Positions 3 through 16,110 of a stretch of DNA of 64,000 bases are shown here, piece by piece. Numbering within the stretch: position 1 is the stretch's first letter; each line of letters begins with the position of its first letter. Location of the stretch: positions 1-64,000 of the forward strand of contig NZ_VTRS01000006.1 of NCBI RefSeq assembly GCF_008641065.1, written 5' to 3'. The translations under genes and the position numbers were made by a program. Under the pieces are notes generated by a model. The model saw nothing but the letters and a program-made list of their open reading frames with translations, was not told where the DNA came from and ran no database searches. Source of the DNA: Rhabdaerophilum calidifontis. Its GTDB lineage: Bacteria > Pseudomonadota > Alphaproteobacteria > Rhizobiales > Beijerinckiaceae.

Positions 3-884
3 GATTGGTCCGCGATCCGGCGCGACGGCGCTGCGCGCGCCGTGGCGGCGGTCGAAGCGGCAGCAGCGCGGGCGCGGGCGCGCTGGGCCGGCTGGCGGCG
101 CCTCGATGCGGCGCTCGCGGCGGCCGGTGCGGCGGAGGTGACGATCCCTGTCTGGATCCGCGACGATGATGCGGTCGCCGCGACCCCGGAGCTGGAGCGC
201 TTCCTCGCTTTGCTCGATCGCTGGGCGCTGCCTGTGGCTCTGGCGACGATCCCGCAGGGGCTGACCGCCTCGCTCGTCGCGCGGGTCCGCGCGCGGCCGG
301 GCACCGACCTGCTGGTCCATGGCCTCGCGCATCTCAACCACGCGCCGGCAGGCGCGAAGAAGGCCGAGTTCGGCGCGCATCGGCCGCTCTCCGTGATGCT
401 GCCCGAACTGGCAGATGCGCTGGCCCGCGTGCGGAGGCTCGCTGGCGCGCGTGCCCTGCCGGTGCTGGTGCCGCCCTGGAACCGGATCGCGCCCGATCTT
501 GTCGCCCGGCTGCCGGAACTTGGCTTCTCGGGGATATCGACCTTCGCCGAGCCGAAGCCGGGCGATACGCCCGCCGGCCTTGTCCGTCGCAACGCCGAGT
601 GGGATCCGATCGCCTGGCGTGCCGGCGGCGGGCTCGGCGACGAGGCGGTGCTTCTCGATGCGCTCGCGGCGCGGATCGAAGCCCGGACCGGTGCCGAATG
701 CGCGGATCCGGCGCGCATGGCGGGGGAGACCGGGGATGGAGAAGCCGCGCCGCTCGGCCTTCTCACGCATCACCTTGTCCATGACGGCTGGATCGAGCGG
801 TTCCTCGGTGCGGTGCTGGCGCGGCTCGCCGCCGCGCCCGCCATCCGGTTCGTGGCGGCGCGGAACCTCTTCCCGGCTCAGTGA
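3..884 (+). CDS. Polysaccharide deacetylase-like protein, 5' end probably outside the window
   Basis: The protein looks like a divergent carbohydrate-esterase-4 / polysaccharide deacetylase (NodB-like) fold. The segment VTIPVWIRDDDAVAATPELE resembles the first metal-binding strand (the DDD cluster). LLVHGLAHLNHAP resembles the H-x3-H metal motif, and LPVLVPPWNRIAPD resembles the later P-P-W-N-R motif of this group. Such proteins remove acetyl groups from cell-surface sugars, but the substrate is unknown. The frame is open to the left edge; the first in-frame start visible is GTG at 42, with no Shine-Dalgarno site, so the true start is probably upstream. The gene ends tail to tail with the permease gene and overlaps it by 7 bp. 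The family call is by motif only. Confidence 0.65.
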   Translation, partial: DWSAIRRDGAARAVAAVEAAAARARARWAGWRRLDAALAAAGAAEVTIPVWIRDDDAVAATPELERFLALLDRWALPVALATIPQGLTASLVARVRARPGTDLLVHGLAHLNHAPAGAKKAEFGAHRPLSVMLPELADALARVRRLAGARALPVLVPPWNRIAPDLVARLPELGFSGISTFAEPKPGDTPAGLVRRNAEWDPIAWRAGGGLGDEAVLLDALAARIEARTGAECADPARMAGETGDGEAAPLGLLTHHLVHDGWIERFLGAVLARLAAAPAIRFVAARNLFPAQ

Positions 885-2077
885 TAGGGGTCGGCCGCGT
901 CCCGCAGCCCGTCGCCGAGGAAGTTGAAGGCGAGGATCACGAGGATCACCGGCACCACGGGCAGGATGAGCCAGGGATAGAGCGCCACGACATTGATGTT
1001 CTGCGCCTCGTTCAGCATCACGCCCCAGGAGGTGATCGGCGGCCGGAGCCCGAGGCCGAGGAAGGAGAGGGCGGTCTCGCCGAGGATCATCGAGGGGATG
1101 GTGATCGTCGCCGAGGCGATGAGATGGCTCATGAAGCCCGGCACGAGGTGCCGGAACACGATCCGCCCCGTGCCCGCGCCCATCAATTGCGCGGCGACGA
1201 CGTAATCCTCCTCGCGCAGCGAGAGCAGCTTCGAGCGCACCGAGCGCGCGAGCCCGGTCCAGTCCATCAGCCCGAGAATGAGGGTGATCGCGAAATAGAC
1301 CAGCAGCGGGCTCCAATGCGGCGGCATGATCGAGGCGAGCGCGAGCCAGATCGGGATATGCGGCAGCGATTGCACGATCTCGATCGCGCGCTGGACGAGA
1401 AGGTCGAACAGGCCGCCATAATAGCCGGCGAGCCCGCCGATCACGATGCCAAGCGTGAAGCTGACGAGAATGCCGATCAGGCCGATCGTCAGCGAGATCC
1501 GCGCGCCGATCAGGATGCGCGAGAGGACGTCGCGCCCGAGCCGGTCGGTGCCGAGCAGGAACAGCGTGCCGCCTTCGCCGGGGCAGACAAGATGGATATC
1601 GGCCTTGACAAGCCCCCAGAAGCGGTAGGAATCGCCGCGGCACAGGAAGCGCAGCGGCACCGGCCGGCTGGTATCCTCGGCATAGAGGCGGCGCATCGTC
1701 TCCATGTCGAGCCGGTATTGCGTCGCGTAGGTGAAGGGCCCGAGGAACCGTCCCTCGTGGAAGAGATGCACCGCCTGGGGCGGGCGGTAGATGAAGCCGG
1801 TATGCCGCTGCTCGTAATTATAGGGCGCGAGGAATTCGGCGATCAGGATCATCGCGTAGAGCGCGGCGAGAAGCAGGCCCGAGACCAGCGCCAGCCGGTG
1901 GCGGCGGAATTTCCACCACATCAGCGTGAGCTGGTCGGCGAGATAGACCTTCTTCTGCGTCTCGGTCAGCGCCTCCTCGATGTGCGGATTGAACGGCGCG
2001 GTCGCGGCGACATGGACGAGCCGACCGCCGGGCGGCGGCAGCGGCAGGGCGCCGGAGGCGGGGTGCGGATCGGTCAT
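878..2077 (-). CDS. Peptide-type ABC transporter permease, DppC/OppC class
   Basis: Second inner-membrane permease of a peptide/nickel-type (family 5) ABC importer. The 399-residue protein has an N-terminal helix near residues 62-85, then a large periplasmic insert of about 100 residues. The BPD_transp_1 core follows with about five more helices and the EAA-type loop VVAAQLMGAGTGRIVFRHLV, which contacts the ATPase. The N-terminal insert is longer than in E. coli DppC and is typical of Yej-like or oligosaccharide-type systems. It starts with ATGA on the stop of the DppB-type permease, so translation is coupled. It is the last gene of the operon. Solute is not deducible: peptides, opines or oligosaccharides are possible. 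Confidence 0.9.
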   Translation of the reverse strand: MTDPHPASGALPLPPPGGRLVHVAATAPFNPHIEEALTETQKKVYLADQLTLMWWKFRRHRLALVSGLLLAALYAMILIAEFLAPYNYEQRHTGFIYRPPQAVHLFHEGRFLGPFTYATQYRLDMETMRRLYAEDTSRPVPLRFLCRGDSYRFWGLVKADIHLVCPGEGGTLFLLGTDRLGRDVLSRILIGARISLTIGLIGILVSFTLGIVIGGLAGYYGGLFDLLVQRAIEIVQSLPHIPIWLALASIMPPHWSPLLVYFAITLILGLMDWTGLARSVRSKLLSLREEDYVVAAQLMGAGTGRIVFRHLVPGFMSHLIASATITIPSMILGETALSFLGLGLRPPITSWGVMLNEAQNINVVALYPWLILPVVPVILVILAFNFLGDGLRDAADPYH

Positions 2078-3072
2078 TTCGTGGCCTGCCCCTGGAGGCG
2101 GATGCGCGGATCGAGCAGCGTCAGCGCGACATCGGAGATCAGCACGCCGATCACGGTCAGCAGCGCGAGGAACATCAGGAACGAGCCGGCGAGGAACATG
2201 TCCTGGCTCTGGAGCGCGCGGATCAGCAGCGGCCCGGTGGTCTGGAGCGAGAGCACGACGGCGGTGAGTTCCGCTCCGGAGACGATGGTCGGCAGGATGT
2301 CGCCGATATGCGAGACGAAGAAGTTGAGCGACATCCGGAACGGATATTTCATCAGCACCCGCCGCGGCGGCAGCCCCTTCGCCTTGGCGGTGACGACATA
2401 TTGCTTGCGCAATTCATCGAGCAGGTTCGCGCGGATCTTGCGGATCATCGCCCCGGTGCCGCCGGCGCCGATGATCAGAACCGGGATCCAGAGATGCGCG
2501 AGGATGGACTTGAACTTCTCCCAGCTCATCGGCTGGTTGAAATATTGCGGCTCCATCAGCCCGCCGATCGAGATCCCGAACCAGACATTGGCGAAATACA
2601 TCGTCACCAGCGCCAGCAGGAAATGCGGGATGGCGATGCCGAGCAGGCCGAGGAAGGAGAGACCGTAATCGCCCCAGCTGTATTGATGGGTCGCGGAATA
2701 GATGCCGATCGGGAACGCGATCACCCAGGTGAGGATGATCGTGCAGAACGAGACCAGCACGGTCAGCCCCAGCCGCTCGCCTACCACGTCGCGCACCGGC
2801 AGGTCGTATTCGAAGGAATAGCCGAAATCGCCCTTGAAGAACCCGGTGATCCAGCGGAAATACTGCACATGGACCGGCTGATCGAGCCCGTATTCCGTGC
2901 GCAGGAATTCGACGCGGCCGAGATCGGCCTTCTCGCCCTGCGCCTGCATCTCGGCGACATAGGTCTCGAAATAATCGCTCGGCGGCAGCTTCATCACGGT
3001 GAAGATCAGCACGCTGGTCACGAACAGGGTCGGGATCATGATCAGCACGCGGCGGAACAGATAGCGCAGCAT
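2074..3072 (-). CDS. Peptide-type ABC transporter permease, DppB/OppB class
   Basis: First permease of the family-5 importer, 332 residues. It begins with the typical MLRYLFRRVLIMIPTLF helix. It has the periplasmic region of this class (GLDQPVHVQYFRWITGFFKG) and the coupling loop VVTAKAKGLPPRRVLMKYPF. About six membrane segments are visible. I start it at the ATG at 3072, five bases after the stop of the binding-protein gene, although the frame stays open further upstream. The start there matches the family N-terminus exactly. It overlaps the next permease gene by four bases (ATGA). Confidence 0.92.
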   Translation of the reverse strand: MLRYLFRRVLIMIPTLFVTSVLIFTVMKLPPSDYFETYVAEMQAQGEKADLGRVEFLRTEYGLDQPVHVQYFRWITGFFKGDFGYSFEYDLPVRDVVGERLGLTVLVSFCTIILTWVIAFPIGIYSATHQYSWGDYGLSFLGLLGIAIPHFLLALVTMYFANVWFGISIGGLMEPQYFNQPMSWEKFKSILAHLWIPVLIIGAGGTGAMIRKIRANLLDELRKQYVVTAKAKGLPPRRVLMKYPFRMSLNFFVSHIGDILPTIVSGAELTAVVLSLQTTGPLLIRALQSQDMFLAGSFLMFLALLTVIGVLISDVALTLLDPRIRLQGQATK

Positions 3073-3077
3073 GGCGT

Positions 3078-5000
3078 TCAGCCGCCTCCCTCGGCGTAGA
3101 AGAAGGTGTCGGGCAGGTAGGCTCCGAGATAGGCGCGGGGCTCGAAGGCGAAGATCGCGGTCTCGGGCACGTTGCGCAGCCGGTTCGAGACCACGACCGG
3201 CTGGCGGGTGCGGTTGACGATGCCGATCGTGAACACTTCCTCGGCGTTGATGGCGAGCATCTCGCGCCAGATCGCCGCCCGCTCCTCGCGGGTGCGCGAG
3301 ACGCGCCATGCGGCATGCAGCTGATGCAGCCGCCACGCGGCCGGCAGGTCGGGCTTCTCGCCCTCCTTGCCGCCGGAAACCGCCCAGAGGCCCCAGAGCG
3401 GCCATTCCGCCTGGGTGAAATTGGTCGGCGCGAGGTCTTCCGGCTCGTTGTCGGGGCCGGGAATCGCGTTATCCATGCCGTGCCAGACCGACATCACGCA
3501 TTGCCCGGCAAGGATGCGGCGCCGGAACACGTCGCGCTGCGATGAGCGGATGAAGAGGCGGATGCCGAGCGCCGCCCAATCCTCCGCGACAAGCTGGAGA
3601 ACATCGGTTTCCTCGGTGCTTTCGCCGGAGGAATCGACGGTCAGCAGCGCCGGCCTGCCGTCCGGCAGCAGGCGGGTTCCGGTCAGGTCGCGCCTGGCGA
3701 GGCCGGCCGCGTCGAGCAGGCGATTCGCCTCGGCCGGGTCGTGGCGGGCATAGGCCTGTTCATGGGCGGGATCGTAGAACGGACTTTCCGGGAGCACCGC
3801 GTTCGCCGCCTCCCGGCCGAGCCCGAAGAAGATCGCCTCGTTGATATCCTTGCGGTTGATGCCGAGCGACAGGGCCCGCCGCACCCGGACATCGCGGAAC
3901 AGCGCCCGCCAGACCGGATCCGCGGCGTTGAGATTGGGCTTCAGCGCCACCTGCGCGCCGTTGCCCTGCTCCCAGAGCAGCACCCGGTATCCCTGGCGTT
4001 TCGCGGCCTCCTTGAGGAAGGTGTAATTGTCGAAGCGCAGGTAGCGCGCCTGGAGATCCGCCTCGCCTGCGCCCACCTTGGCGGGGATGAGGTTGCTCGC
4101 GGTGATCGCCATCTCGACCCGGTCGAGATAGGGCAATTGTCGCCCCTGCTCGTCAACCCGGTGGAAATAGGGGTTGCGCTCGAAGACGAAGCGCTCCGCC
4201 GGCGGATGCGTGCGATTGACCCAGGGGTCGAGTGTCGGCAGCTCGGGATTCTCCGGCCGGTAGGAGCGCGACTTGCGCTCGTGCAGCGCGCCCCAATCGC
4301 GCACCTTGGCCGCCTTGATCTCGGCCGCGAGCGCCGCCGGCTCGGCATGGCGCGCGTGGAAGCGCTTCATGTAATGCGCCGGCATCGCGATCACCTGCGG
4401 CTGCGCGCTCGCCAGCGCCGGCAGGAACATCGGGTTCGGCGTCTTCCAGGCGTAGCGCACCGTCGTCGCGTCGAGGACCGCGAATTCGGGCGGTTCGCCG
4501 GCCACCAGCAGCGGCATCGGCGGCCCGGAGCGGTTGAGCCGCGCATTGGTCGCGACATCCTCCCACCAATAGCGGAAATCCTCGGCCGTGAACGGATGCC
4601 CGTCCGACCATTTGTGCCCCGTCCGCAGATGCAGCGTGAAGACCCGCCCGGCCTCGACCTCGACGCGCGCCAGGATGTCGGGGACGAGATCGCCCGCCAT
4701 GTCGAAGGTGACGAGGCGGGCATAGCCGTAGACGGTCATGAAGCGGATGTCGCGCTGGTCGCCCATCAGCATCCGCAGCGTGCCGCCATGCCGGCCCGGC
4801 ATCTTGCGCAAGGCAGCCAGCGGCATGATGCGCGGCTCGGCCGGCAGGCGCTCGGCGAGCGGGGGCAGCGTGCCCTCCTTCACCCGCGCCGCGAGGGCGG
4901 GGGCCTCGCGCGGCTCGGCCGCGCGCAGCGCCGTCGCGCGCCCGGCGAGGCAGAGGCCGGCGGCGCCGAGGCCGAACAGGCGGCGGGTGAGCCGGGTCAT
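3078..5000 (-). CDS. Extracellular solute-binding protein, family 5 (peptide/nickel type)
   Basis: Periplasmic binding protein of the importer, 640 residues, within the long-length class of SBP_bac_5 proteins. The N-terminus MTRLTRRLFGLGAAGLCLAG carries a twin-arginine-like motif (TRRLFGL) before a hydrophobic stretch and an Ala-rich cleavage region, so Tat export is possible. Family signs are WSDGHPFTAEDFRYWWEDV, the Y-F-H-R-V-D segment before PYLDRVEM, and VRRALSLGINRKDINEAIFF. It starts with ATG overlapping the ATPase stop (ATGA). Such long members bind oligopeptides or, in rhizobia, sugars such as alpha-galactosides; the sequence alone does not decide. Confidence 0.9.
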   Translation of the reverse strand: MTRLTRRLFGLGAAGLCLAGRATALRAAEPREAPALAARVKEGTLPPLAERLPAEPRIMPLAALRKMPGRHGGTLRMLMGDQRDIRFMTVYGYARLVTFDMAGDLVPDILARVEVEAGRVFTLHLRTGHKWSDGHPFTAEDFRYWWEDVATNARLNRSGPPMPLLVAGEPPEFAVLDATTVRYAWKTPNPMFLPALASAQPQVIAMPAHYMKRFHARHAEPAALAAEIKAAKVRDWGALHERKSRSYRPENPELPTLDPWVNRTHPPAERFVFERNPYFHRVDEQGRQLPYLDRVEMAITASNLIPAKVGAGEADLQARYLRFDNYTFLKEAAKRQGYRVLLWEQGNGAQVALKPNLNAADPVWRALFRDVRVRRALSLGINRKDINEAIFFGLGREAANAVLPESPFYDPAHEQAYARHDPAEANRLLDAAGLARRDLTGTRLLPDGRPALLTVDSSGESTEETDVLQLVAEDWAALGIRLFIRSSQRDVFRRRILAGQCVMSVWHGMDNAIPGPDNEPEDLAPTNFTQAEWPLWGLWAVSGGKEGEKPDLPAAWRLHQLHAAWRVSRTREERAAIWREMLAINAEEVFTIGIVNRTRQPVVVSNRLRNVPETAIFAFEPRAYLGAYLPDTFFYAEGGG

Positions 5001-6871
5001 GCCGCCTGCTCCCCGATGATCGGTCCGCAGGCGAGCACCCTGTGACCGGGCGCGATCTCCTGGAAGGTCAGGCTCTCGCCGGGCCGTGCCGCGAAGGGCG
5101 CACCCCAGCTCGCGGGATCGGAGGCGTTTCCGAGCGCGAGCCGCGCGAAATCGAGCGGCCGGGCGAGATCGGCATGCGGAACCGCCGCCAGCAGCCGGCG
5201 GGTATAGGGATGGACGGGATTGGCGAAGATCTGGTCGCGCCCGGCGAGTTCGACGATCCGCCCGCGCGCCATCACCGCGATGCGGTCGGCCATGTAATGC
5301 ACCACCGCGAGATTGTGCGAGACGAAGAGATAGGTCAGCCCCAGCTCGGCCTGGAGATCCTTCAGCAGGTTGAGGATCTGCGCCTGCACCGAGACATCGA
5401 GCGCCGAGACCGGCTCGTCGCAGATGATTATGTCCGGCCGCAGCGCCAGCGCCCGCGCGATGCCGATCCGCTGCCGCTGCCCGCCCGAGAAGGAATGCGG
5501 ATAGCGGTTGAGAAAGCGCGGATCGAGCCCCACGCGCAACATCAATTCGCCCGCCAGCGCCTTCTGCGCCGCCACGTCGCGCCGCCCCTCGATGATCATC
5601 GGTTCGCGGATGATGTCGAGCACGCTCATGCGCGGCGAGAGCGAGGCGACGGGATCCTGGAAGATCATCTGGATGCGCGGGCGCAGGGCCCGCAGCGCAG
5701 CGGCATCGAGCGCGAGCACATCCACCGGCCCCTCGGGGGCGTGATAGACGATGCGCCCCGCATCCGCCCGCCGCGCCCGCATGATCAGGTTGCCGACGGT
5801 GGTCTTGCCCGAGCCGCTCTCGCCGACAATGCCGAGGCATTCCCCGCGCATCACCTCGAAGCTGACTTCATCCACCGCGCGGATCGCCTCGCCGGTCCCC
5901 GTGCCGAACAGCCCGCGCGAGCGCGCGCCATAGGCCTTGCAGAGGCCGGAGACGGTGAGGATCGGCCCGGCTTCCGGCCGGGCTTCCGGCGCGCGCGGCG
6001 GCGCGGCGACGTCGCGGAGCGAGACGAGACGCTCACCCGGCTTCATGTCGAAACGCGGCGTCGCCTTGAGCAGCGCCCGCAGATAGGGGTGGCGCGGCGC
6101 GCCGAAAATGTCGCCGACCTCGCCCATCTCGACGATTTCGCCGCGATAGATGACCACCACCTCGTCGGCGAGATTGGCGACGACGCCGAGATCATGGGTG
6201 ATGATCAGCGTCGCCATGCCGATCTCGGCCTGGAGATCCTTCATCAGCTTCAGCACCTGGGCCTGGATGGTGACATCGAGCGCCGAGGTCGGCTCGTCGG
6301 CGATCAGCAGCGCCGGCCGGCAGATCAGCGCCATCGCGAGCATCGCGCGCTGGCGCAGGCCGCCCGAGAGTTCGAACGGATAGCGCTCGAAGGCGCCGGC
6401 GGGATCGCGGAAGCCGACGGCGGCGAACATCCGCTCGGTCTCCTGCCGCGCCGCCTTGCCGCGCAGGCCGTGATGCAGCGTCAGCGCCTCGGAGACCTGG
6501 TCGCCGATCGTGTGCACCGGGGAGAGCGAGGACATCGGCTCCTGGAAGATCATGCCGATCCGCCCGCCGCGCAGCTTCCGGAAGGCGCTGCCATCGCGAT
6601 CGAGCGGCGCGAGATCGACCGGCCCGCCCGCCGCCTTCGGATCATCGAACAGGATGCGCCCGCCGAGGATCACGCCCTGTTTTGGCAACAGCCCCATCAC
6701 CGATTGCGATATGACGGTTTTGCCGGAACCGCTCTCGCCCACAAGCGCCACCGTCCGGCCGGGGGGGACGCGCAAAGACACGCCCTTGACGACCTCGTTG
6801 ATCTCGCCATGCAGCTCGAAGCCGATGCGCAGATCCTCGATCCGGAGCAGATCCGTTCCGGCTTCACGCAC
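4997..6871 (-). CDS. Fused double ATPase of a peptide-type ABC transporter (DppD-DppF fusion)
   Basis: Cytoplasmic energy-coupling subunit with two complete nucleotide-binding domains in one chain of 624 residues. Both halves have Walker A GESGSGKT, a signature (LSGGLRQR and FSGGQRQR) and Walker B (LLIADEPT and IIICDEPV). Each half also carries the oligopeptide C-terminal extension (HPYLRALLKATP; HPYTRRLLAAVP). I choose the GTG at 6871: GGGAGG lies nine bases upstream and it overlaps the cyclase stop by only 8 bp. An ATG at 6895 is the alternative but has no such site. A single fused ATPase with one binding protein and two permeases makes a complete importer. Confidence 0.9.
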   Translation of the reverse strand: MREAGTDLLRIEDLRIGFELHGEINEVVKGVSLRVPPGRTVALVGESGSGKTVISQSVMGLLPKQGVILGGRILFDDPKAAGGPVDLAPLDRDGSAFRKLRGGRIGMIFQEPMSSLSPVHTIGDQVSEALTLHHGLRGKAARQETERMFAAVGFRDPAGAFERYPFELSGGLRQRAMLAMALICRPALLIADEPTSALDVTIQAQVLKLMKDLQAEIGMATLIITHDLGVVANLADEVVVIYRGEIVEMGEVGDIFGAPRHPYLRALLKATPRFDMKPGERLVSLRDVAAPPRAPEARPEAGPILTVSGLCKAYGARSRGLFGTGTGEAIRAVDEVSFEVMRGECLGIVGESGSGKTTVGNLIMRARRADAGRIVYHAPEGPVDVLALDAAALRALRPRIQMIFQDPVASLSPRMSVLDIIREPMIIEGRRDVAAQKALAGELMLRVGLDPRFLNRYPHSFSGGQRQRIGIARALALRPDIIICDEPVSALDVSVQAQILNLLKDLQAELGLTYLFVSHNLAVVHYMADRIAVMARGRIVELAGRDQIFANPVHPYTRRLLAAVPHADLARPLDFARLALGNASDPASWGAPFAARPGESLTFQEIAPGHRVLACGPIIGEQAA

Positions 6872-8618
6872 GCTCGGTTTCCTCCCGGTCGCCATGCGCG
6901 TCCTGCTCCTCCTGCTCGCCGCCGCGCAGCACGCGCCAATCGTCGACCGCATGGGCGCGCAATACGTCATCCATGTTTTCGATCTCGATCTCATGAACCG
7001 CGAGCCGCGCGGTATCGATGCGGGCGAGGCGAAGCGTCGCGGCCGAGATCAGGCAATCGGTCAGCAGCCGCTTGGTCGCGTCCTGGAGCCGCGCGGCGAT
7101 CGAGACCGTGGGTCCGAAGGCCATTAATCCCGAGTCGCGCTCTGTCGACCCGATCCGCGCCAGGGTCGTGGTGCCGCTATGGATACCGATGCCGGCCCGG
7201 ATGGGGATCGGCAGCGCGCCACCCATGTCGCGGTTGAGGATCTTGAGCACCCGGCCCATGTCGCGCGCGGCCGCGATCGCCTGGCGGGCCGCGGCGCGCG
7301 GATCCTCGGCGTTCTCGAACACGGCGATCAGCCCGTCGCCGTAGAAGGTGGAGACATGGCCGCCATGGTTCTTCACCGCTTGGCGCATCTCGTTGCCGAA
7401 CCGGTTGACCAGCGCCACGAGTTCGTAGGGCAGGTTGCTCTGGGCGAGCACGTTGAACCCGCGCAGGTCGAGCGAGAGGATCGAGGCGACCCGTTCGGCG
7501 GCCCAGCGTTCGGCGTCGCGCCGGCTCTCGGGATCCTGCGCCGCGCCGATCACCGGCAGCAGGATGCGGACGGTGACGTCGCTGGTCGGGCGCAGCTGGC
7601 AGGCGAGGCGTACATCGGCATGCGAGCCGACGCGGTCGAGCACCTGCCGTTCCGCCTCGGAGGGCGGCGGCAATGCCTCCGGATCCGAAAGGATCTGGAC
7701 GCGGCAGGTCGAGCAGCGCCCTCGTCCCCGGCAGAGCGAGGGGTGCGGGATGCCATGGACCCGGCTCGTTTCCAGCACCGACATGCCCCTCGGGGCCCGC
7801 ACCGGCCCGCGGCCGCGATAGGTGATGGTGATCTTGTCGCCGATCTTCTGCCGCAACAGGCTGAGATACAGCGCGGCGAGAAGCAGGGCGGCGATCCCGC
7901 CGAGGCCGATCTGCGCCTTGCGGCGGATTTCCGCGACGCGCTCCGTCTGCTCGGCGGTCATCGTCGGCGGGGATTGCGGCGGCCGCAGCGCGGTCTCGCG
8001 CCCGGAGGCGATGAAGCCGGCGATGGCAAGGGTCGGCACGACGATCGCGAGCACCGCGCCTGCGGTCCTGATCCGGGCGAACCAAGGCCGATGTCGGAAG
8101 GCCAGCACGATCCCGATCACGCCGTGGAACCAGCTGACGAGCACCAGCGTGCTCTGCCAGAGGAACGAGCCGGGCCAGAGCGCGCGCAGCACGTTGTCGT
8201 AGAAGCTGTTGCCGTCGAACCAGGTGCCGGCCACCCGCGTGGCGATGATGTGCTGGAGCAGCAGCACCGGGATCAGCAGCCCGAGCGCGATCTGCGTCAT
8301 CTCGTCGCGGGTCATGCGCAGGGTTCTGCGCGTCACGATCCGGAACAGCGCCAGGCCGATATGCACCGCGAAGCTGCCGTAGAGCAGCGTCAACCCGATC
8401 GGGTTGTGCCAGATCTCCCAGCGCAGGGTCTGGATCGCGTCGAGAACCTCGATCCCGAACAGGCCCGCGGCGTGGTTGAGGAGATGCATCGTCAGGAAGG
8501 TGAACAGCACCAGCCCCGATCCGAGCCTCAGCAGGCGCGACCAGACGATCGTGCGCCAGCCGGGGCGGCGGGGGGCGGCAAGGTCGATATCGTCCGTCGC
8601 GCTGTCGATCTGGGTCAT
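6864..8618 (-). CDS. Membrane heme-b/ferredoxin-coupled class III nucleotide cyclase
   Basis: A 584-residue protein with three parts. Residues about 28-256 form some six membrane helices. The first has the SdhC-like pattern TMHLLNHAAGLF (His45, His49), and His86, His123 and His165 lie in later helices, so heme b binding is plausible. Residues 262-355 are a plant-type [2Fe-2S] ferredoxin domain with Cys296-x5-Cys302-x2-Cys305 and Cys340. Residues 376-555 are a class III adenylate/guanylate cyclase domain. Metal-binding Asp384 (SLDLRGF) and Asp428 (FYGDGL) and Arg510 are kept. The two positions that usually choose the base are Thr424 (for Lys) and Met499 (for Asp), and the transition-state Asn is Ser506. 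It follows the cyclic-nucleotide-binding gene by 16 bp. I infer redox control of a second messenger; the product nucleotide is unknown. Confidence 0.85.
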   Translation of the reverse strand: MTQIDSATDDIDLAAPRRPGWRTIVWSRLLRLGSGLVLFTFLTMHLLNHAAGLFGIEVLDAIQTLRWEIWHNPIGLTLLYGSFAVHIGLALFRIVTRRTLRMTRDEMTQIALGLLIPVLLLQHIIATRVAGTWFDGNSFYDNVLRALWPGSFLWQSTLVLVSWFHGVIGIVLAFRHRPWFARIRTAGAVLAIVVPTLAIAGFIASGRETALRPPQSPPTMTAEQTERVAEIRRKAQIGLGGIAALLLAALYLSLLRQKIGDKITITYRGRGPVRAPRGMSVLETSRVHGIPHPSLCRGRGRCSTCRVQILSDPEALPPPSEAERQVLDRVGSHADVRLACQLRPTSDVTVRILLPVIGAAQDPESRRDAERWAAERVASILSLDLRGFNVLAQSNLPYELVALVNRFGNEMRQAVKNHGGHVSTFYGDGLIAVFENAEDPRAAARQAIAAARDMGRVLKILNRDMGGALPIPIRAGIGIHSGTTTLARIGSTERDSGLMAFGPTVSIAARLQDATKRLLTDCLISAATLRLARIDTARLAVHEIEIENMDDVLRAHAVDDWRVLRGGEQEEQDAHGDREETERA

Positions 8619-8634
8619 GCCGGGAGTTCCGCAA

Positions 8635-9057
8635 TCAGGCGGGTTCGGTGGCGTGGGCCGGGGTCATGGTCAGCAGCGTATCCGCGAGCCGCGCGAGATC
8701 GGTCATGATCGCGAGCGAGATCGCGCTGCAATGCTGCGTCAGCGCGAGGAAGGAGTCGCGGTCCACCCGCAGCGCCTCGATGGCGGTTCGGGCGCGGATG
8801 GTGCGCGCGCGCGGCCGGCGCAGCAGGGTGCCGATCACGCCGATGATATGCGGCAGGGGATAGCCGTCATCAGTCTCGGCCTCGCCGGAGAGAATGAACA
8901 GCACCTCGTTCGAGCTTTCGCCCGCGGCATAGATCGTTGCGCCCGCGGGGATGGAGACCCGGTCCGCCGAGACTGCGATCAGCCGGAGCTTCGCCGGTTC
9001 GACCCCCTGGAAGACCGGGGATTGCTGGAGGAGGGCGATCTCCTGATCGATGGCCAT
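8635..9057 (-). CDS. Single-domain cyclic-nucleotide-binding protein
   Basis: A 140-residue stand-alone cNMP-binding (CAP/Crp effector) domain. The beta-roll pattern is clear (PVFQGVEPAKLRLIA, IPAGATIYAAGE, EVLFILSGEAE), followed by a phosphate-binding-cassette-like stretch IIGVIGTLLRRPRARTIRAR. No helix-turn-helix or membrane segment follows, so it probably acts by protein-protein contact. The expected Gly-Glu of the phosphate cassette is not conserved, so ligand binding needs proof. AGAGGA lies before the ATG. It sits between the pseudo-ABC gene (31 bp gap) and the cyclase gene (16 bp gap), which suggests it reads the cyclase product. Confidence 0.82.
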   Translation of the reverse strand: MAIDQEIALLQQSPVFQGVEPAKLRLIAVSADRVSIPAGATIYAAGESSNEVLFILSGEAETDDGYPLPHIIGVIGTLLRRPRARTIRARTAIEALRVDRDSFLALTQHCSAISLAIMTDLARLADTLLTMTPAHATEPA

Positions 9058-9088
9058 GATGATCCTCTGCTTGCTGCTGCGGGTGTGC

Positions 9089-11764
9089 TCAGGCGGCGCG
9101 CGACGATGCCGGATCGTCGCGCCCCCGGTCGGAGGCCAGGCGCGTGCCCTGGAAGGTCAGGATCCGGTCGAAGCCCGAAGCGGCGGCCTCGTCCGGCAGG
9201 GTAACAAGAAGGCTGCGGCCCATGAAGGCCTCGCGCAGCCCGGCGATGATCCGGGCCTGGTCGGCGGCGGAAAAGGCCGCGAGTGCGTTGTCAAGGATGA
9301 GCGTGTCCGGCCGCACGAGCACTGCGCGGGCAAGCGCGATCAGCGCGCGCTGCTCGGGCGTCAGCAGCCGGCCGCCGGGGCCTGTCTCCTGCGCGAGTCC
9401 CTGCTCGATCACGAAGGTTTCGAGGTCATGCGCCTTGAGCGCTTCGAGCAGAACCGCCTCGACCTTGCCGCGCACGCCCTGCATCCCGTAGCCGATCCGC
9501 CCGAAGAGCAGGTTGTCGCGGATCGGCGCGGAATGCATCACCTGCCCAAAATCGTAGAATTCGATCTCGCTTGCCGCCCGCGCCGCGATGTAGAGCCGGA
9601 AGCTGGTGCGCGCCCGCAGGATGCGTGCGGCGAGCAGGTCGTCGATGAGATTGAGCCGGTGGCGCGGCTCGATATAGGCGAGCGCGTAGCCGAGCAGCTT
9701 GTCGCGCACCCGGCCGGACATGCGGCCGCCCCGGCCGCGCCGCGCAGCGCGCAGCAATTCCGCCAAGGCCTCGCGGTCGCTCGTATCGACGAAGGAATAG
9801 CGGTCCGCGAGCGGGCTGCCCGGCGGCAATTCCGCCGTGATGTCGAGAACGGTCTCGACGATGCGCAGGCCGATCCGTGTCAGCGGCTCGATCAGCGCCT
9901 CGGCCTCGAGCAGGCCACGGGCGAAGGGATCGCGCGCGAAATGGGCAAGGTCGAAGCGCCCGCCGGTCGCACGGCCGAACATCAGGTTTTCGCCGATCGT
10001 CGCGAGCGAGTTGTAGCGGCGATGATCGAACGGCTCGACGGCCCCCATCAGCCCGCGCGCCGAGAGCAGGTCGCGGATGGTGGCGCGGGCCTGCACGATG
10101 CGCGCCTCGATCTCGGCATCGACATAGGGGCCGACCCGGCCCGACAGCCCAGCCTGGAACACGCTGTCATAGCCATGCACACTCCGCAAGGCGGCGATGA
10201 TCGCGGCGTTGAGCCCGGCCGGGCCATCGACGCCGAGCAGGGCGTAATCGATCCAGTCGCTCTCGCCGGAAACCGGGGGATTCCCGGTCATCTCGGCTTC
10301 CGCGCGCTGGCGCGGCCCGTCCCGGTCGGCATCGTCGGCACCGAAGGGCGGCGGGGCTCTCAGCCGCGCGACCAGCGTGATATTCTCGCGGATCGTGCCG
10401 GACATGACATGCGGATCGGCGCCGACATAGAGCAGCGCCCGGCTCGCCGCCTTGTCGCCGAGCCTGCCGATCGGCCGTCCGCCGATCGTGACATCGCCGG
10501 AGAAATCGCTGATCTGCCGTCCGAGAACCTTCGGCAGGATGTCGCGCGCGCTGCCTTGCGGGCCGACCAGCGCCACATGCGCCGGCCGGCGGATCACGAG
10601 CGAGAGCGCATCGAGCTGGATGATGCCGCGCGCATTGCTGACCCTCAGCGCCGCGGTCTGGATCGGGGCTTCGGGCGGGACGGGCGCGTCGTCGGCGATT
10701 TCCGGCAGCAATTCGCGCGAGAAGGCGCCAACCACCTGCTCGAACTTCACCAGCACGTCGGCGCGCTGCTGGTCCCAGTCGATCAGCTCCTTCACCGGCC
10801 CCGGCAGGTCGCGATAGGCGGCGATCACAGCGACGAGCTGGCCGATATCGAGCCGGCCCTTGAGTGCGAGATAGCCGCCGAGCGTGTAGAAGATGAAGGG
10901 CGTTGCCTGTGCGAGCAGGTTGTTGAGGAACTTGACGGAGAATTTCCGCCGGAAGAGCCGCATGCGGATATCGAAGAGATGGGCGAGCCGCGTGCCGATT
11001 TCCGCGCCGAAATGCGGCACCAGCGCGTGGCCGTGCAGCAGCGGCGCGGCATCGACCATCTCGCTCACCCGGCCGGCGAATTTTCGCGACGCCACCTGCC
11101 GCTTGCGGCCAAGCCGCAATTGCTCCTTGCGCAGCCGCGGGATGATGATGCCCTGCACCGCGATCACCAATCCGGCGAGAACGCCCATCAGGATGTTCTG
11201 GGTCATGATGAACAGCAGCGCCGTCAGCGCCTGTGCGCCGAGAAAGGCCGGGGTGATGAAGGCCTCGCCGAAGAACCCGCCGATCGGCTCCACCTCATCC
11301 TTGACCATGCTGGCGATCTCGGCGGATTTCGTCGCGCGGATCGATTCCGGCCGGAAGCGCATCACCAGCGTGAACAATTCGAAGCGCAGCCGCCGCAGCA
11401 TCCGTTCCCCGAGGATGCCCTTGCGCAGGTTGATCACGTATTTGAACGCGCCGTTGACCAGCGTCAGCCCGAGAAACAGGAAGCTCAGCGCCAGGAGATA
11501 GGGGAGCTGCGCGAGCAGGATGCCCTCTGTGAGCGTGATGCCGCCGCCGCCGAGGAGATCCGGCAGGCCGAGCGTCACCTCGAACAGCCGCGCCTCGACC
11601 GCCCCGTCACGGAAGGCACGGCCCTGGATCGCGTCGTTGACGATCCGTTTCGGGATATCGAGCGACACCCAGTAGAACGGCAGGGAGGCGAGCACGAGAA
11701 ACAGCACCACGAGCTGTTCGCGCCGGCTGTGCCGCCAGACATATGCGAAGAACCCGCTCTGCAA
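9089..11764 (-). CDS. ABC-exporter-like protein with a degenerate, expanded nucleotide-binding domain
   Basis: An 891-residue protein. Residues about 15-320 form a type-I ABC exporter membrane domain (helices near 18-33, 84-110, 168-205, 285-302). The C-terminal domain is homologous to an ABC ATPase but broken at all catalytic sites. Walker A is GPQGSARD (residues 401-408, no Gly-Lys-Ser/Thr). The signature is LLTPEQR (about 800-806), Walker B is TLILDN (821-826, Asn for the catalytic Glu) and the H-loop His is absent (LLVTLPDE). The post-Q-loop motif occurs three times: IRENI (458), IGENLMFG (590) and IRDNLLFG (748). The start is TTG at 11764 with GGGAGG eight bases upstream. It is first in the operon with the cNMP protein and the cyclase. 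It may be a non-hydrolysing receptor or scaffold rather than a pump. Confidence 0.8.
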   Translation of the reverse strand: MQSGFFAYVWRHSRREQLVVLFLVLASLPFYWVSLDIPKRIVNDAIQGRAFRDGAVEARLFEVTLGLPDLLGGGGITLTEGILLAQLPYLLALSFLFLGLTLVNGAFKYVINLRKGILGERMLRRLRFELFTLVMRFRPESIRATKSAEIASMVKDEVEPIGGFFGEAFITPAFLGAQALTALLFIMTQNILMGVLAGLVIAVQGIIIPRLRKEQLRLGRKRQVASRKFAGRVSEMVDAAPLLHGHALVPHFGAEIGTRLAHLFDIRMRLFRRKFSVKFLNNLLAQATPFIFYTLGGYLALKGRLDIGQLVAVIAAYRDLPGPVKELIDWDQQRADVLVKFEQVVGAFSRELLPEIADDAPVPPEAPIQTAALRVSNARGIIQLDALSLVIRRPAHVALVGPQGSARDILPKVLGRQISDFSGDVTIGGRPIGRLGDKAASRALLYVGADPHVMSGTIRENITLVARLRAPPPFGADDADRDGPRQRAEAEMTGNPPVSGESDWIDYALLGVDGPAGLNAAIIAALRSVHGYDSVFQAGLSGRVGPYVDAEIEARIVQARATIRDLLSARGLMGAVEPFDHRRYNSLATIGENLMFGRATGGRFDLAHFARDPFARGLLEAEALIEPLTRIGLRIVETVLDITAELPPGSPLADRYSFVDTSDREALAELLRAARRGRGGRMSGRVRDKLLGYALAYIEPRHRLNLIDDLLAARILRARTSFRLYIAARAASEIEFYDFGQVMHSAPIRDNLLFGRIGYGMQGVRGKVEAVLLEALKAHDLETFVIEQGLAQETGPGGRLLTPEQRALIALARAVLVRPDTLILDNALAAFSAADQARIIAGLREAFMGRSLLVTLPDEAAASGFDRILTFQGTRLASDRGRDDPASSRAA

Positions 11765-12689: not shown

Positions 12690-13409
12690 TCAGACATGCA
12701 GATAGCGGTCCTTGACGCCCGGATCGGCGGCAAGGCCCGCGCTGTCCCCGCTCCAGACGACGCGGCCCTTCTCGATCACGACATGGCGATCGGCGAATTT
12801 CGCGAGCTGGTCGACATTCTTGTCGATGACGAGGATGGATTCGCCCTCCGCCTTGAGGTTCCGCAGGCAGGTCCAGATCTCCTGCCGGATCAGCGGCGCG
12901 AGCCCTTCGGTCGCCTCGTCGAGGATCACGAGCTTCGGATTGGTCATCAGCGCCCGGCCGATCGCGAGCATCTGCTGCTCGCCGCCGGAAAGCTGGCTGC
13001 CGAGATTGCCCCGCCGCTCGGCAAGGCGGGGGAACAGGGCGTAGACGCGCGCCAGCGTCCAGCGCGGCGGGCCGAACCGTGCCGCCGCCGTGGCGACGAG
13101 GTTTTCCTCCACGCTGAGCGTCGGGAAGATCTGCCGCCCCTCCGGCACGAGGCCGATGCCCCGCCGCGCGATGGCGTGCGGCGGGCTTCCGGCGAGTTCC
13201 CTGCCCTCGAAGCGGATCGAGCCACCCTGTGGCGGCAGCAGCCCCATGATGGCGCGGATGGTCGTCGTCTTGCCCATGCCGTTGCGGCCGAGCAGCGTCA
13301 CCACCTCGCCGGCGCCGACCGAGAAGCCGATCCCGAACAGAACCTGGCTCTGGCCGTAGGCAGCGCGCAGATTCTCCACCGCGAGCATCGCCGGCGATCC
13401 GGCGGTCAT
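12690..13409 (-). CDS. Branched-chain-amino-acid-type ABC transporter ATPase, LivF class
   Basis: ATP-binding subunit of 239 residues with Walker A GRNGMGKT, signature QLSGGEQQML and Walker B LVILDEATEGLAP, which is the LivF-specific form. GIGLVPEGRQIFPTLSVEENL is the diagnostic Q-loop region of LivF. It begins with ATG overlapping the LivG stop (ATGA) and is the last gene of the five-gene importer operon. It should work with LivG as a heterodimer on the LivH/LivM membrane pair. Systems of this class carry branched-chain amino acids, urea, amides or aromatic acids. Confidence 0.93.
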   Translation of the reverse strand: MTAGSPAMLAVENLRAAYGQSQVLFGIGFSVGAGEVVTLLGRNGMGKTTTIRAIMGLLPPQGGSIRFEGRELAGSPPHAIARRGIGLVPEGRQIFPTLSVEENLVATAAARFGPPRWTLARVYALFPRLAERRGNLGSQLSGGEQQMLAIGRALMTNPKLVILDEATEGLAPLIRQEIWTCLRNLKAEGESILVIDKNVDQLAKFADRHVVIEKGRVVWSGDSAGLAADPGVKDRYLHV

Positions 13410-14161
13410 GCCGCCTCCTCCTCGCCGAGATAGGCGGCGCGCACTGCCGGGTTGGCGCGGATTTCCGCCGGCGCGCCGGTCGCGATCACCCGGCCGGAGA
13501 CGAGCACGCTGATGCGGTCGGCGAGCGAGAAGACCGCGTCCATGTCGTGCTCGACGAGCAGGATCGTGTAGCGGCCCCTGAGCCGGCGCAGCAGTGCCAC
13601 GATCGCCTGCCCTTCCTCGTGGCCCATTCCGGCGAGCGGCTCGTCGAGCAGCAGGATCCTCGGCCGGGTGGCGAGCGAGATCGCAAGTTCGAGCTGGCGC
13701 TTCTCGCCATGCGAGAGCAAGCCCGCCGGCAGGTCCGCGCGTGCACCGAGGCCGACAATGTCGAGCATCGCCCGGGCCTCGGCGTTGAGCGCCGGCTCGT
13801 CCGCCGCCGTGCCGAGGAAGCGGAAGCTGCTTCCTGCACGCGCCTGCACCGCGAGCGCGACATTCTCGAGCACCGGGAAGCCGGGCAGGATCGAGGTGAT
13901 CTGGAACGAGCGCGCCAGGCCGCGCCGCGTCCTCGCGGCGAGCGACAGCGCCGTGATATCGGCGCCGTCGAGCAGAACCCGGCCGGAATCGCTCGGCGTG
14001 AGGCCGGAGATCTGGTGGATCAGCGTCGTCTTGCCGGCGCCGTTGGGGCCGATCACGGCATGGAGTTCGTCACGGCGGATCGCGAGCGAGACGTCCTCCG
14101 TCACGACAAGGCCGCCATAGGCCTTGCGCAGGCGATCGAGGATGAGGATGTCCTCAGCCAT
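13406..14161 (-). CDS. Branched-chain-amino-acid-type ABC transporter ATPase, LivG class
   Basis: ATP-binding subunit, 251 residues from the ATG at 14161, which has GGGAGG five bases upstream; the frame is open further but the extra residues are not family-like. Walker A is GPNGAGKTT, the signature is LSHGEKRQLELA (the LivG form) and Walker B is ILLLDEPLAGMG. TRRGLARSFQITSILPGFPVLENV is the LivG Q-loop region. It overlaps the LivM gene by 8 bp and LivF by 4 bp, so the four cytoplasmic and membrane genes are translationally coupled. Confidence 0.93.
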   Translation of the reverse strand: MAEDILILDRLRKAYGGLVVTEDVSLAIRRDELHAVIGPNGAGKTTLIHQISGLTPSDSGRVLLDGADITALSLAARTRRGLARSFQITSILPGFPVLENVALAVQARAGSSFRFLGTAADEPALNAEARAMLDIVGLGARADLPAGLLSHGEKRQLELAISLATRPRILLLDEPLAGMGHEEGQAIVALLRRLRGRYTILLVEHDMDAVFSLADRISVLVSGRVIATGAPAEIRANPAVRAAYLGEEEAA

Positions 14162-15131
14162 GCCGCCCTCCCGTGATCCGCGTGATCGCCCCGACGAGGC
14201 CGCCGCGCGCATGGAGCACGACCAGGATCAGCAGCGGTCCGAAGATCATCTTCCAGTGCTCAGTGATGCCGGCGAGCCATTCCTCGATCAGCAGATAGGC
14301 GAGCGCGCCGATCAGCGGGCCGATGAGCGTTCCCATTCCGCCGAGCACCACCATCACGATCAGTTCGCCCGAGCGTTGCCAGGCCATGTAGGCGGGCGAG
14401 ATGAAATTCGTCTGGTTGGCGATCAGCACCCCGGAAAGCCCGCAGATTGCCCCGGAAATCACGTAGGCCGTGAGCTGGTAGCGAAAGGGCTCGAAGCCGA
14501 TCGCCTGCATCCGCACCGGGTTCTCGCGCGTGCCGCGCAGCACGCGGCCGAAGCGCGCGGCGACGAGCGCACGGCAGGCGAGGAGCGTCGCCGCCAGCAC
14601 CGCAAGCACGAGATAGTAGAAGATCGTCGCGTTCCCCAGCCATTCGGCGCCGAGAACGGTCGAGCGTCGCGCGATCGTCAGCCCGTCATCGCCGCCATAG
14701 GCCGCGAGCGAAACCGCGAGGAAGAACGCCATCTGCCCGAAGGCGAGGGTGATCATGATGAAATGGACGCCCTTCGTCCGGAGCGAGACGGCGCCGGTCA
14801 GCGCCGCGAATCCGGCCGAGACGAGGATCGCGACGCCCGCCTGCGCCAGCAGATCCTCGATGCCATGCGTCGCGAGGATGCCGACGGCATAGGCGCCGAT
14901 CCCCATGAAGGCGGCATGCCCGAACGAGACCATCGCGCCATAGCCGAGGATCAGGTCGAGCGAGATCGCGGCGACGGCGAAGATCATCACGCGCGTCACC
15001 AGCAGCAGCACGTAGCTGTCCGCACCGAGCGCGCCGAGCAGCGGCAGTGTCGCGAGCCCTGCAAGGATCAGCCCGGCGAGACGCGGCCGCCGATCGCGCA
15101 GCGGGCCGGCGGTGGGGTGCGCGCCGCTCAT
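14154..15131 (-). CDS. Branched-chain-amino-acid-type ABC transporter permease, LivM class
   Basis: Inner-membrane permease, 325 residues, starting at the ATG at 15131 that overlaps the LivH stop (ATGA). About nine to ten helices are visible. The LivM hallmarks are LILGYGAMVSFGHAAFMGIGAYAVG and the loop RGTRENPVRMQAIGFEPFRYQL. GELIVMVVLGGMGTLIGPLIGA is the conserved C-terminal signature. It should form the translocation pore with LivH. The substrate cannot be told from it. Confidence 0.92.
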   Translation of the reverse strand: MSGAHPTAGPLRDRRPRLAGLILAGLATLPLLGALGADSYVLLLVTRVMIFAVAAISLDLILGYGAMVSFGHAAFMGIGAYAVGILATHGIEDLLAQAGVAILVSAGFAALTGAVSLRTKGVHFIMITLAFGQMAFFLAVSLAAYGGDDGLTIARRSTVLGAEWLGNATIFYYLVLAVLAATLLACRALVAARFGRVLRGTRENPVRMQAIGFEPFRYQLTAYVISGAICGLSGVLIANQTNFISPAYMAWQRSGELIVMVVLGGMGTLIGPLIGALAYLLIEEWLAGITEHWKMIFGPLLILVVLHARGGLVGAITRITGGRHG

Positions 15132-16048
15132 CGCCGCACCGGGAAGAGCCCCGCCGGCCGGACGAACAGCACGGCAGCCATCAGGATATAGATCAGCATC
15201 GGCGCCAGCGCCTGCCCGGCCTGGCTGGCGGCGGAAGCGTCGAGGAACAGCCGCAGCACCAGCGGGCCGAAGGCGCGGCCGAGCGTGTCGACCAGCCCGA
15301 CGAGCAACGCGGCGATGAAGGCGCCGCGGATCGATCCGATGCCGCCGATGACGATGACGACGAAGGTCAGGATCAGCAGGTTGTCGCCCATGCCGGGCTC
15401 GACCGAGACGAGCGGCGCCACCATCGCGCCGGCGAAGCCCGCGAGCATGGCGCCGAACCCGAAAACCAGCATGAAGAGCCGGCCGATATCGACGCCGAGC
15501 GCCGAGACCATCGGCGCATTGGCGGCGCCGGCGCGCACCAGCATGCCGATCCGCGTCCGGCTCACGAGCAGGGAGAGCAGGAGCGCCACCGCGATGCCGG
15601 CGCCGATCACCGCAAGGCGGTAGATTGGGTAGCGCAGCCCTTCCATCAGCTGGATCGAGCCCGAGAGCAGCGTCGGCACCGGCACCGAAAGCGGTGCCGC
15701 GCCCCAGACGAATTTCACGGCCTGGTTGAGGAACAGGATGATTCCGAAGGTCGCGAGCACCTGGTCGAGATGGTCGCGCGCGTAGAGATGGCGGAAGACG
15801 AGCCATTCGAGCGCGAGGCCGAGCGTCAGCGCCGCGGGCAGCGCGAGCCCGAGCCCGAGGAAGAAATTGTCGGTGAGCGCGGTGAACATCGCCGCCAGAT
15901 AGGCGCCGATCATGAACTGGACGCCATGGGCGAGGTTGATGAAGTCCATCACCCCGAAGACCAGTGTCAGCCCGGCGGCGACGAGGAAGAGCAGCACGCC
16001 GAGCTGAAGGCCGTTCAGCGTCTGGACAGAGAGCAAGGTCGCCGACAC
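15128..16048 (-). CDS. Branched-chain-amino-acid-type ABC transporter permease, LivH class
   Basis: Inner-membrane permease. I start it at the GTG at 16048 (306 residues), preceded by a G-rich GGGGG site; a longer open frame adds 28 residues without helix or family likeness. LivH marks are LVFGVMDFINLAHGVQFMIGAY near the N-terminus, RTRIGMLVRAGAANAPMVSALG and VVIVIGGIGSIRGAFIAALLVG. Typical members have Arg-Ala-x-x-x-Asn in the middle loop, as here. It lies 62 bp downstream of the binding-protein gene and overlaps livM. Confidence 0.9.
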   Translation of the reverse strand: MSATLLSVQTLNGLQLGVLLFLVAAGLTLVFGVMDFINLAHGVQFMIGAYLAAMFTALTDNFFLGLGLALPAALTLGLALEWLVFRHLYARDHLDQVLATFGIILFLNQAVKFVWGAAPLSVPVPTLLSGSIQLMEGLRYPIYRLAVIGAGIAVALLLSLLVSRTRIGMLVRAGAANAPMVSALGVDIGRLFMLVFGFGAMLAGFAGAMVAPLVSVEPGMGDNLLILTFVVIVIGGIGSIRGAFIAALLVGLVDTLGRAFGPLVLRLFLDASAASQAGQALAPMLIYILMAAVLFVRPAGLFPVRR

Positions 16049-16110
16049 GGCAGGCCCCCGATCAGGAAGAGGAGGGGCGCCTGCTCCGGCCAGGCGCCCG
16101 GCATGCCGGA

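Follow-up and report, generated by a model that had tools for sequence, protein, structure and literature searches.

The CyaC-type redox cyclase is a known kind of protein; what appears, from aligned sequences, to be new is the degenerate active site of those members that are encoded next to an ABC exporter-like gene. One such member is found in the window, the 64,000-nucleotide stretch of the Rhabdaerophilum calidifontis genome (3.09 Mb) that was analysed here (contig C16 of our set), where it forms a trio with a stand-alone cNMP-binding protein and an ABC exporter-like pseudo-ATPase. We tentatively read the trio as a redox-gated pseudocyclase complex that would signal by protein contact, a reading to which we give somewhat less than an even chance. 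Throughout, L numbers denote fetched loci and G numbers sampled genomes.

The three genes occupy 6864-11764 on the minus strand, separated by gaps of 31 bp (ABC to cNMP) and 16 bp (cNMP to cyclase), an arrangement proposed in a first-pass annotation and borne out by the ORFs. Its assignment of a ferredoxin and a class III cyclase domain, a cNMP-binding domain and an ABC-exporter fold was likewise upheld by Pfam matches above the curated cut-offs and by models. The ABC exporter-like pseudo-ATPase (9089..11764, 891 aa) has a TTG start with GGAGG upstream of it; the cNMP-binding (Crp-like) domain protein (8635..9057, 140 aa) was assigned from its ORF and Pfam (cNMP_binding, 7.6e-9, above the curated cut-off); and the CyaC-type membrane [2Fe-2S] class III cyclase-like protein (6864..8618, 584 aa) was assigned from its ORF, Pfam and a structure model. 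The 3' end of the cyclase gene is overlapped by the start, at 6871 or 6895, of an Opp/Dpp-type ABC ATPase gene (4997..6895, two ABC_tran stretches and oligo_HPY), and the same strand also carries the SBP_bac_5 solute-binding protein of an Opp-type importer (3078..4958, start approximate) and two Opp-type permeases, one with BPD_transp_1 (2074..3102, start approximate) and one with OppC_N and BPD_transp_1 by Pfam (878..2077). We infer that the seven genes probably form one operon. The genes upstream of the trio, at 12690-16100, presumably encode a branched-chain amino-acid type ABC importer, to judge by the look of their translations alone. Sequencing error or frameshift decay was ruled out for the trio because the ORFs are open, relatives align over nearly their full length and dN/dS is low.

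The ABC protein consists of an exporter transmembrane domain (about residues 1-340), the front half of an NBD (384-470), an insert of about 300 residues (471-775) and the back half of the NBD (776-880). The transmembrane domain and NBD lobes of the ABC exporter fold were found by Pfam (ABC_membrane, 3.1e-9, above the curated cut-off; ABC_tran matched over positions 1-80 of 137 only), in a single-chain structure model (pLDDT 86.2, pTM 0.80), by Foldseek, which matched the model to ABC exporters, TmrAB among others, and by sequence matches to ABC exporters that cover about 52-466 and 741-881. Walker A reads GPQGSARD (within VALVGPQGSARDIL, 10535..10576, minus strand, residues 397-410), Walker B reads ILDN, without the Glu, and the H-loop His is missing; the broken ATPase of the first-pass annotation is thus substantiated, and the protein lacks residues on which an ordinary ATPase depends. 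The degeneracy is not a peculiarity of the window genome, because Walker A is broken throughout the family, in 113/115 sequences, and an intact GxxGxGK[ST] was seen in 2/115; the set includes two near-identical pairs, L005/L031, the latter being the locus of Rhabdaerophilum sp. SD176, and L006/L036. The Walker B Glu is found in 18/115 and the H-loop His in 13/115, and all three ATPase motifs are intact in two sequences from one genus (L149 and L150). In the insert, two extra stretches on the minus strand (9968-10045, residues 574-599, and 9485-9568, residues 733-760) resemble in sequence the TIRENI motif that follows the Q-loop; the family consensus of the first is VEPFDPxRYN...ATxAENLLFG.

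Gene positions and fusions link the cNMP partner to the ABC protein. The ABC gene has a cNMP homologue at its 3' end in 109/113 ABC loci (107 from ORF-end positions, plus a fusion, L009, and a partial gene at a contig end, L153), or in 99/113 under a stricter rule on domain positions. Among these 113 loci, 80 are close kin, the best 80 of at least 564 confirmed loci and biased toward close kin, and 29 come from the class sample, as the 29 best-scoring of 97 other matching genomes. The cNMP gene is absent beside the ABC gene in four loci (L033, L138, L149 and L150), which include both loci with all ATPase motifs intact (Fisher p 0.0009, from two related sequences). L138 is partly like L149 and L150 in its ATPase motifs. 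The two genes are fused into one ORF in 12 cases from 9 genomes (L180-L190 and L196; 1008-1133 aa), found among 20 loci chosen largely because they have long open frames; 12/20 is hence not a rate. Three of the fusion copies are in a single genome (G174). In a phylum sample of 299 genomes the ABC family is almost restricted to Alphaproteobacteria, which account for 24 of the 25 matching genomes, the remaining one being a partial match; within the window's genus the gene is patchy, in 3/13 genomes, the window's own included. In a genome of the same family (G302; L179, 2434-5022) the C-terminal half of one protein fits the ABC family well and its transmembrane half hardly at all. The pseudo-ABC and cNMP pair is also present on pSymB of Sinorhizobium meliloti strain R14 (L197, 13980-17252), where it is annotated as an ABC transporter ATP-binding protein and a Crp/Fnr family regulator; Walker A of the pSymB ABC protein is broken too.

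The third protein carries a helical anchor, a [2Fe-2S] ferredoxin domain (residues 266-355) and a class III cyclase-like domain (375-540), with Fer2 at 1.1e-8 and Guanylate_cyc at 3e-8, both above the curated cut-offs. In its single-chain structure model (pLDDT 88.1, pTM 0.71) the cyclase domain compares with 1WC1 at a target TM of 0.84-0.86 and 28% identity. Five His of the anchor (45, 49, 86, 123 and 165) and four Cys of the ferredoxin domain (296, 302, 305 and 340) are conserved, all of them in 38/38 degenerate ABC-adjacent cyclases; in the stand-alone CyaC-type rows (n=29), H49 is found in 28/29 and the remaining four anchor His in 29/29. The redox ligand residues are, by this conservation, intact, and would be occupied by heme and a [2Fe-2S] centre. 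The SdhC-like His pairs of the first-pass annotation stand as far as the conserved anchor His are concerned, but similarity to SdhC by sequence was not detected: a profile of the anchor had no match at E<=1 among solved structures, and an SdhC Pfam family was found in none of 46 members. This counts against a redox-gated complex, and the SdhC-like label is based on how the His are arranged and on the published description of this cyclase cluster (PMC4821796).

We take the six catalytic positions to be those of Spirulina CyaC, D1017, K1057, D1061, T1139, N1146 and R1150, with the roles given to them here; they were transferred by alignment to 1WC0. At these positions the window cyclase reads DTDMSR (D384, T424, D428, M499, S506 and R510): both metal-binding Asp are present, the substrate-specifying Lys and Thr/Asp are replaced by T424 and M499, the transition-state Asn is replaced by S506, and the Arg is retained. 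A homodimer of the window protein, while keeping the cyclase fold, is therefore predicted to have no complete canonical active site. DKDTNR is found in 27/29 stand-alone CyaC-type cyclases (the best-scoring loci of 81 other genomes with a match), the other two deviating at the Lys only, but in just 4/42 readable ABC-adjacent cyclases, the other 38 being degenerate; of 45 ABC-adjacent rows, three that run off the end of their locus were set aside, namely L037 as well as L005 and L006, which repeat L031 and L036. Clustering at 70% identity leaves canonical sites in 3/19 adjacent versus 25/27 stand-alone clusters. Among the 38 degenerate cyclases the two metal Asp are kept in 38 and 37, and the Lys, Thr, Asn and Arg in 0, 1, 2 and 4. 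Between ten close pairs, dN/dS of the degenerate domain is 0.019-0.099, which argues that the domain is under selection. In a tree built by a quick method with the catalytic columns masked, one branch splits adjacent from stand-alone cyclases (SH-aLRT 99) and the 38 degenerate cyclases form one clade (support 98), ABC adjacency and degeneracy changing once each; the residue counts are therefore not independent and reflect one origin plus drift, and an independent-pairs test on the tree, with a single pair, was uninformative. A further ABC-adjacent degenerate cyclase (DSDTSR) is found in G062 (L177).

The cyclic-nucleotide pocket of the cNMP partner appears to have decayed in part alongside the degenerate cyclases. 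The window pocket, GV...RRPRART, has Val74 at the position of a Glu in most relatives and keeps R83. Neither this change nor the loss of three of the six catalytic residues in the cyclase had been noted in the first-pass annotation. Both the Glu and the Arg are kept in 4/4 loci with a canonical CyaC-type cyclase and in 65/67 loci without a CyaC-type gene in the stretch examined (29/67 with short flanks only; the other two loci have Asp/Arg), versus 11/37 loci with a degenerate cyclase (69/71 elsewhere), a comparison that omits L005, L006 and L037, whose cyclases are incomplete and none of which keeps both residues. L155, from genome G062, keeps both residues and was scored as cyclase-free owing to its short flank, the adjacent degenerate cyclase being that of L177; its reassignment gives 12/38 beside a degenerate cyclase and 64/66 cyclase-free loci (68/70 elsewhere in all). 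The contrast amounts to few events, because the loci are related, with 22 Bosea-type rows (DADI/DSDI) among them. In L033 the cyclase is degenerate and the cNMP gene was not found at the locus. The window genome has ten cNMP_binding domains, at least one of them with a canonical-looking cassette (L169).

On our tentative reading, and by analogy with S. meliloti CyaC, the quinone pool would set the redox state of the hemes and the [2Fe-2S] centre. The redox state would in turn change the conformation of the pseudocyclase. Instead of making cAMP, the pseudocyclase would relay this change by touching its two partners directly, the cNMP-like adaptor and, within the same membrane, the pseudo-ABC exporter, which would serve as a non-pumping scaffold or gate. 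As to the output there are leads only, namely glycan handling, from the glycan genes that are neighbours in relatives, and peptide import, from the Opp-type importer of the same putative operon in the window. Several observations sit uneasily with such a complex. The pocket is kept beside a degenerate cyclase in eight Ancylobacter loci and in L024, L035 and L038, which are the 11 loci counted above, and in G062. The fusions join the ABC and cNMP proteins only, the cyclase being joined to neither, and the contacts among the three are predicted ones. Moreover, the pair of metal Asp is not obviously needed by a purely structural domain, Arg510 is still present in the window cyclase, and there are noncanonical class III cyclases that retain activity.

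The selective retention of the metal Asp bears on the chief rival, a cyclase half-site, in which the degenerate domain would pair with a canonical cyclase protomer to form one redox-gated, cAMP-making site. The C1 domain of mammalian adenylyl cyclase has kept the metal-binding half of the site and lost the Lys/Thr/Asn/Arg half. The degenerate cyclases show the same pattern of kept and lost residues, and they largely retain GDG and GIGIHxG. The window genome also encodes two further class III domains, and in one of them (L001) the motifs for the metal Asp, the Lys, the Asn and the Arg are all intact. Nevertheless, no C2-like partner was identified; both of these further domains are on other contigs; a partner would also be required in Bosea and Ancylobacter; and the cNMP pockets have decayed too. 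We consider this rival unlikely.

How closely the three genes belong together was followed in a class sample of 289 genomes, in which the cyclase matched (E<=1e-20) in 82 and the ABC protein (E<=1e-40) in 98. The ABC and CyaC-type genes occur together in 76/82 cyclase genomes (Fisher p 7e-42, with kinship ignored), or 75/80 without G239 and G245, whose cyclase matches cover the cyclase domain or little more, and 45/50 cyclase families are ABC families too. In the 76 genomes with both, the genes lie within 3 kb in G000 and G062 only and on different contigs in 59, which, like the single origin of the degenerate cyclases, speaks against a redox-gated complex. A check of the neighbourhood across genomes, proposed by the first-pass annotation, gave a divided answer: the trio is adjacent in many Hyphomicrobiales, with a same-strand CyaC-type gene in 43/113 ABC loci (80/113 being close kin), but no CyaC-type gene was found within the 1.5-kb flanks of 29 class-sample ABC loci, G062 having one slightly further out. 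That the trio is an ancient unit of fixed composition was ruled out, the ABC-cNMP pair being widespread and the CyaC-type gene being the third member in one Hyphomicrobiales set. In L008, L043, L050, L060, L066 and L070 an MBL-fold-like ORF (a motif match; Pfam in L043 only) occupies the place of the cyclase.

Glycan genes (GT4, GT28-like, deacetylase and FkbM relatives) are near the ABC gene in 23/29 class-sample loci with 1.5-kb flanks, and in 64/80 close-kin loci (best 80 of at least 564) with flanks up to 8 kb, L050 and L099 among the 64 having served as the source of queries. In the same 80 loci, again the best 80 of at least 564, an Opp-type ATPase-like ORF cluster occurs in 64 and SBP_bac_5 relatives in 42. 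A Polysacc_lyase ORF cluster is present in 15/80 (best 80 of at least 564); in L030 such a gene (6853-7944, Pfam in L030) lies divergently upstream of the ABC gene, and none was seen directly upstream of the ABC gene of the window. The cyclase also matched 63 plasmid records, and in the two Rhizobium ones that were inspected it lies amid GT4, deacetylase and FkbM genes, the cyclase of one of them (L199) reading DKDTNR. On S. meliloti pSymB the cluster that includes the ABC-cNMP pair also encodes an Opp-type importer, GT4, FkbM and a class III cyclase that differs in architecture.

A fuller history can be drawn, which we regard as possible but doubtful. The ABC exporter would have given up ATP hydrolysis and gained a cNMP partner, and a quinone-sensing CyaC-type cyclase would have joined the operon later; in one Hyphomicrobiales lineage the cyclase and, in part, the pocket would then have decayed while the redox ligands were kept, leaving a messenger-less pathway in which the signal passes by contact alone.

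Many heterodimeric exporters have one site that is degenerate, and the genes may simply form a loose neighbourhood. The trio would then be co-transcribed with the Opp importer without forming a pathway, and the ABC protein would dimerise, as the degenerate partner, with an intact half-transporter encoded at an unlinked site. The resemblance of the ABC model to TmrAB, among others, would fit this view, as would the finding of glycan genes at 0/29 stand-alone CyaC-type loci (1.5-kb flanks). It is rather unlikely, however, given that ABC-cNMP fusions exist and that the ABC and CyaC-type genes co-occur as often as they do, kinship being ignored in that count.

The chain envisaged by the first-pass annotation, in which an active redox-regulated cyclase makes cAMP that is bound by the cNMP protein, which then acts on the ABC protein, is improbable for the window. 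Synthesis of the messenger is unlikely because the Lys, Thr and Asn of the active site are Thr, Met and Ser and the catalytic set is lost across the clade, and its binding is doubtful because the pocket Glu is Val. On paper, however, the chain may operate in relatives in which the canonical catalytic six and the pocket Glu and Arg are found together (L053, L059, L091 and L092), and class III cyclases of another architecture adjoin the ABC-cNMP genes in L190, L191 and the S. meliloti pSymB cluster (DRDSNR, DKDTNR and DSDSNR). Finally, an active cyclase of changed specificity, with cUMP, cCMP or a similar product, would suit the kept metal site, the changed substrate residues and Arg510 of the window protein, but is quite improbable because a new specificity that is conserved would not fit the variety of substitutions among relatives (at the Lys position T, A, Q, L, V, S, N or M), nor the loss of the transition-state Asn and Arg in most, these being kept in 2 and 4 of 38.

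Pseudoenzymes are familiar among kinases. If a redox-gated pseudocyclase complex is indeed what the trio forms, it would represent a cyclase-receptor-transporter chain that is losing its chemistry while its sensor is still constrained, that is, second-messenger signalling turning into direct allostery. The alphaproteobacterial pseudo-ABC/cNMP module is present in a model organism, on S. meliloti pSymB, and is hence testable there.

A literature search found no pseudo-ABC/cNMP or pseudocyclase system in Alphaproteobacteria, which is weak evidence because subscription papers were mostly outside its scope, and a viral fold search gave nothing informative. The nearest system is HetC of Nostoc PCC 7120, an ABC exporter whose cNMP-type domain is needed in vivo; as far as the accessible text of the report goes, and unlike the window proteins, HetC carries its cNMP domain, which bound ppGpp rather than cAMP, at the N-terminus, includes a peptidase domain, and depends on its ATPase catalytic residue (PMC10986499). 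The window ABC protein has the exporter fold in common with MsbA, Atm1, TmrAB and PCAT1, but is without the Walker A Lys-Ser/Thr, the catalytic Glu and the H-loop His, and its insert of about 300 residues separates the Q-loop region from the signature. Similarly, the window cyclase has the fold of Spirulina CyaC (1WC0/1WC1), the K, T and N of which are T, M and S in the window. For the cyclase part, the first-pass annotation was wrong to state that no characterised system is known, because S. meliloti CyaC has the same make-up, a 6TM diheme-B-type anchor, [2Fe-2S] and a class III cyclase, and is reported to bind two b-type hemes and to be regulated by redox state and quinone (Wissig et al., 2019, cited in PMC10463352). 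Its [2Fe-2S] is named in a figure legend of PMC10463352. Earlier, 30 class IIIb cyclases in which a ferredoxin links a 6TM anchor to the catalytic domain had been described as a cluster (Beltz et al., 2016; PMC4821796), with an SdhC-type anchor in which two hemes are predicted to be bound by four spaced intramembrane His; the domain order is that of the window cyclase, and the accessible part of that description mentions neither degenerate active sites nor ABC/cNMP neighbours. S. meliloti CyaC makes cAMP, and Clr and the TetR regulator CycR are reported to take part in its signalling (PMC10463352). In contrast, the window cyclase falls in the ABC-linked group of the tree, on which CyaC itself was not placed, and has a degenerate site.
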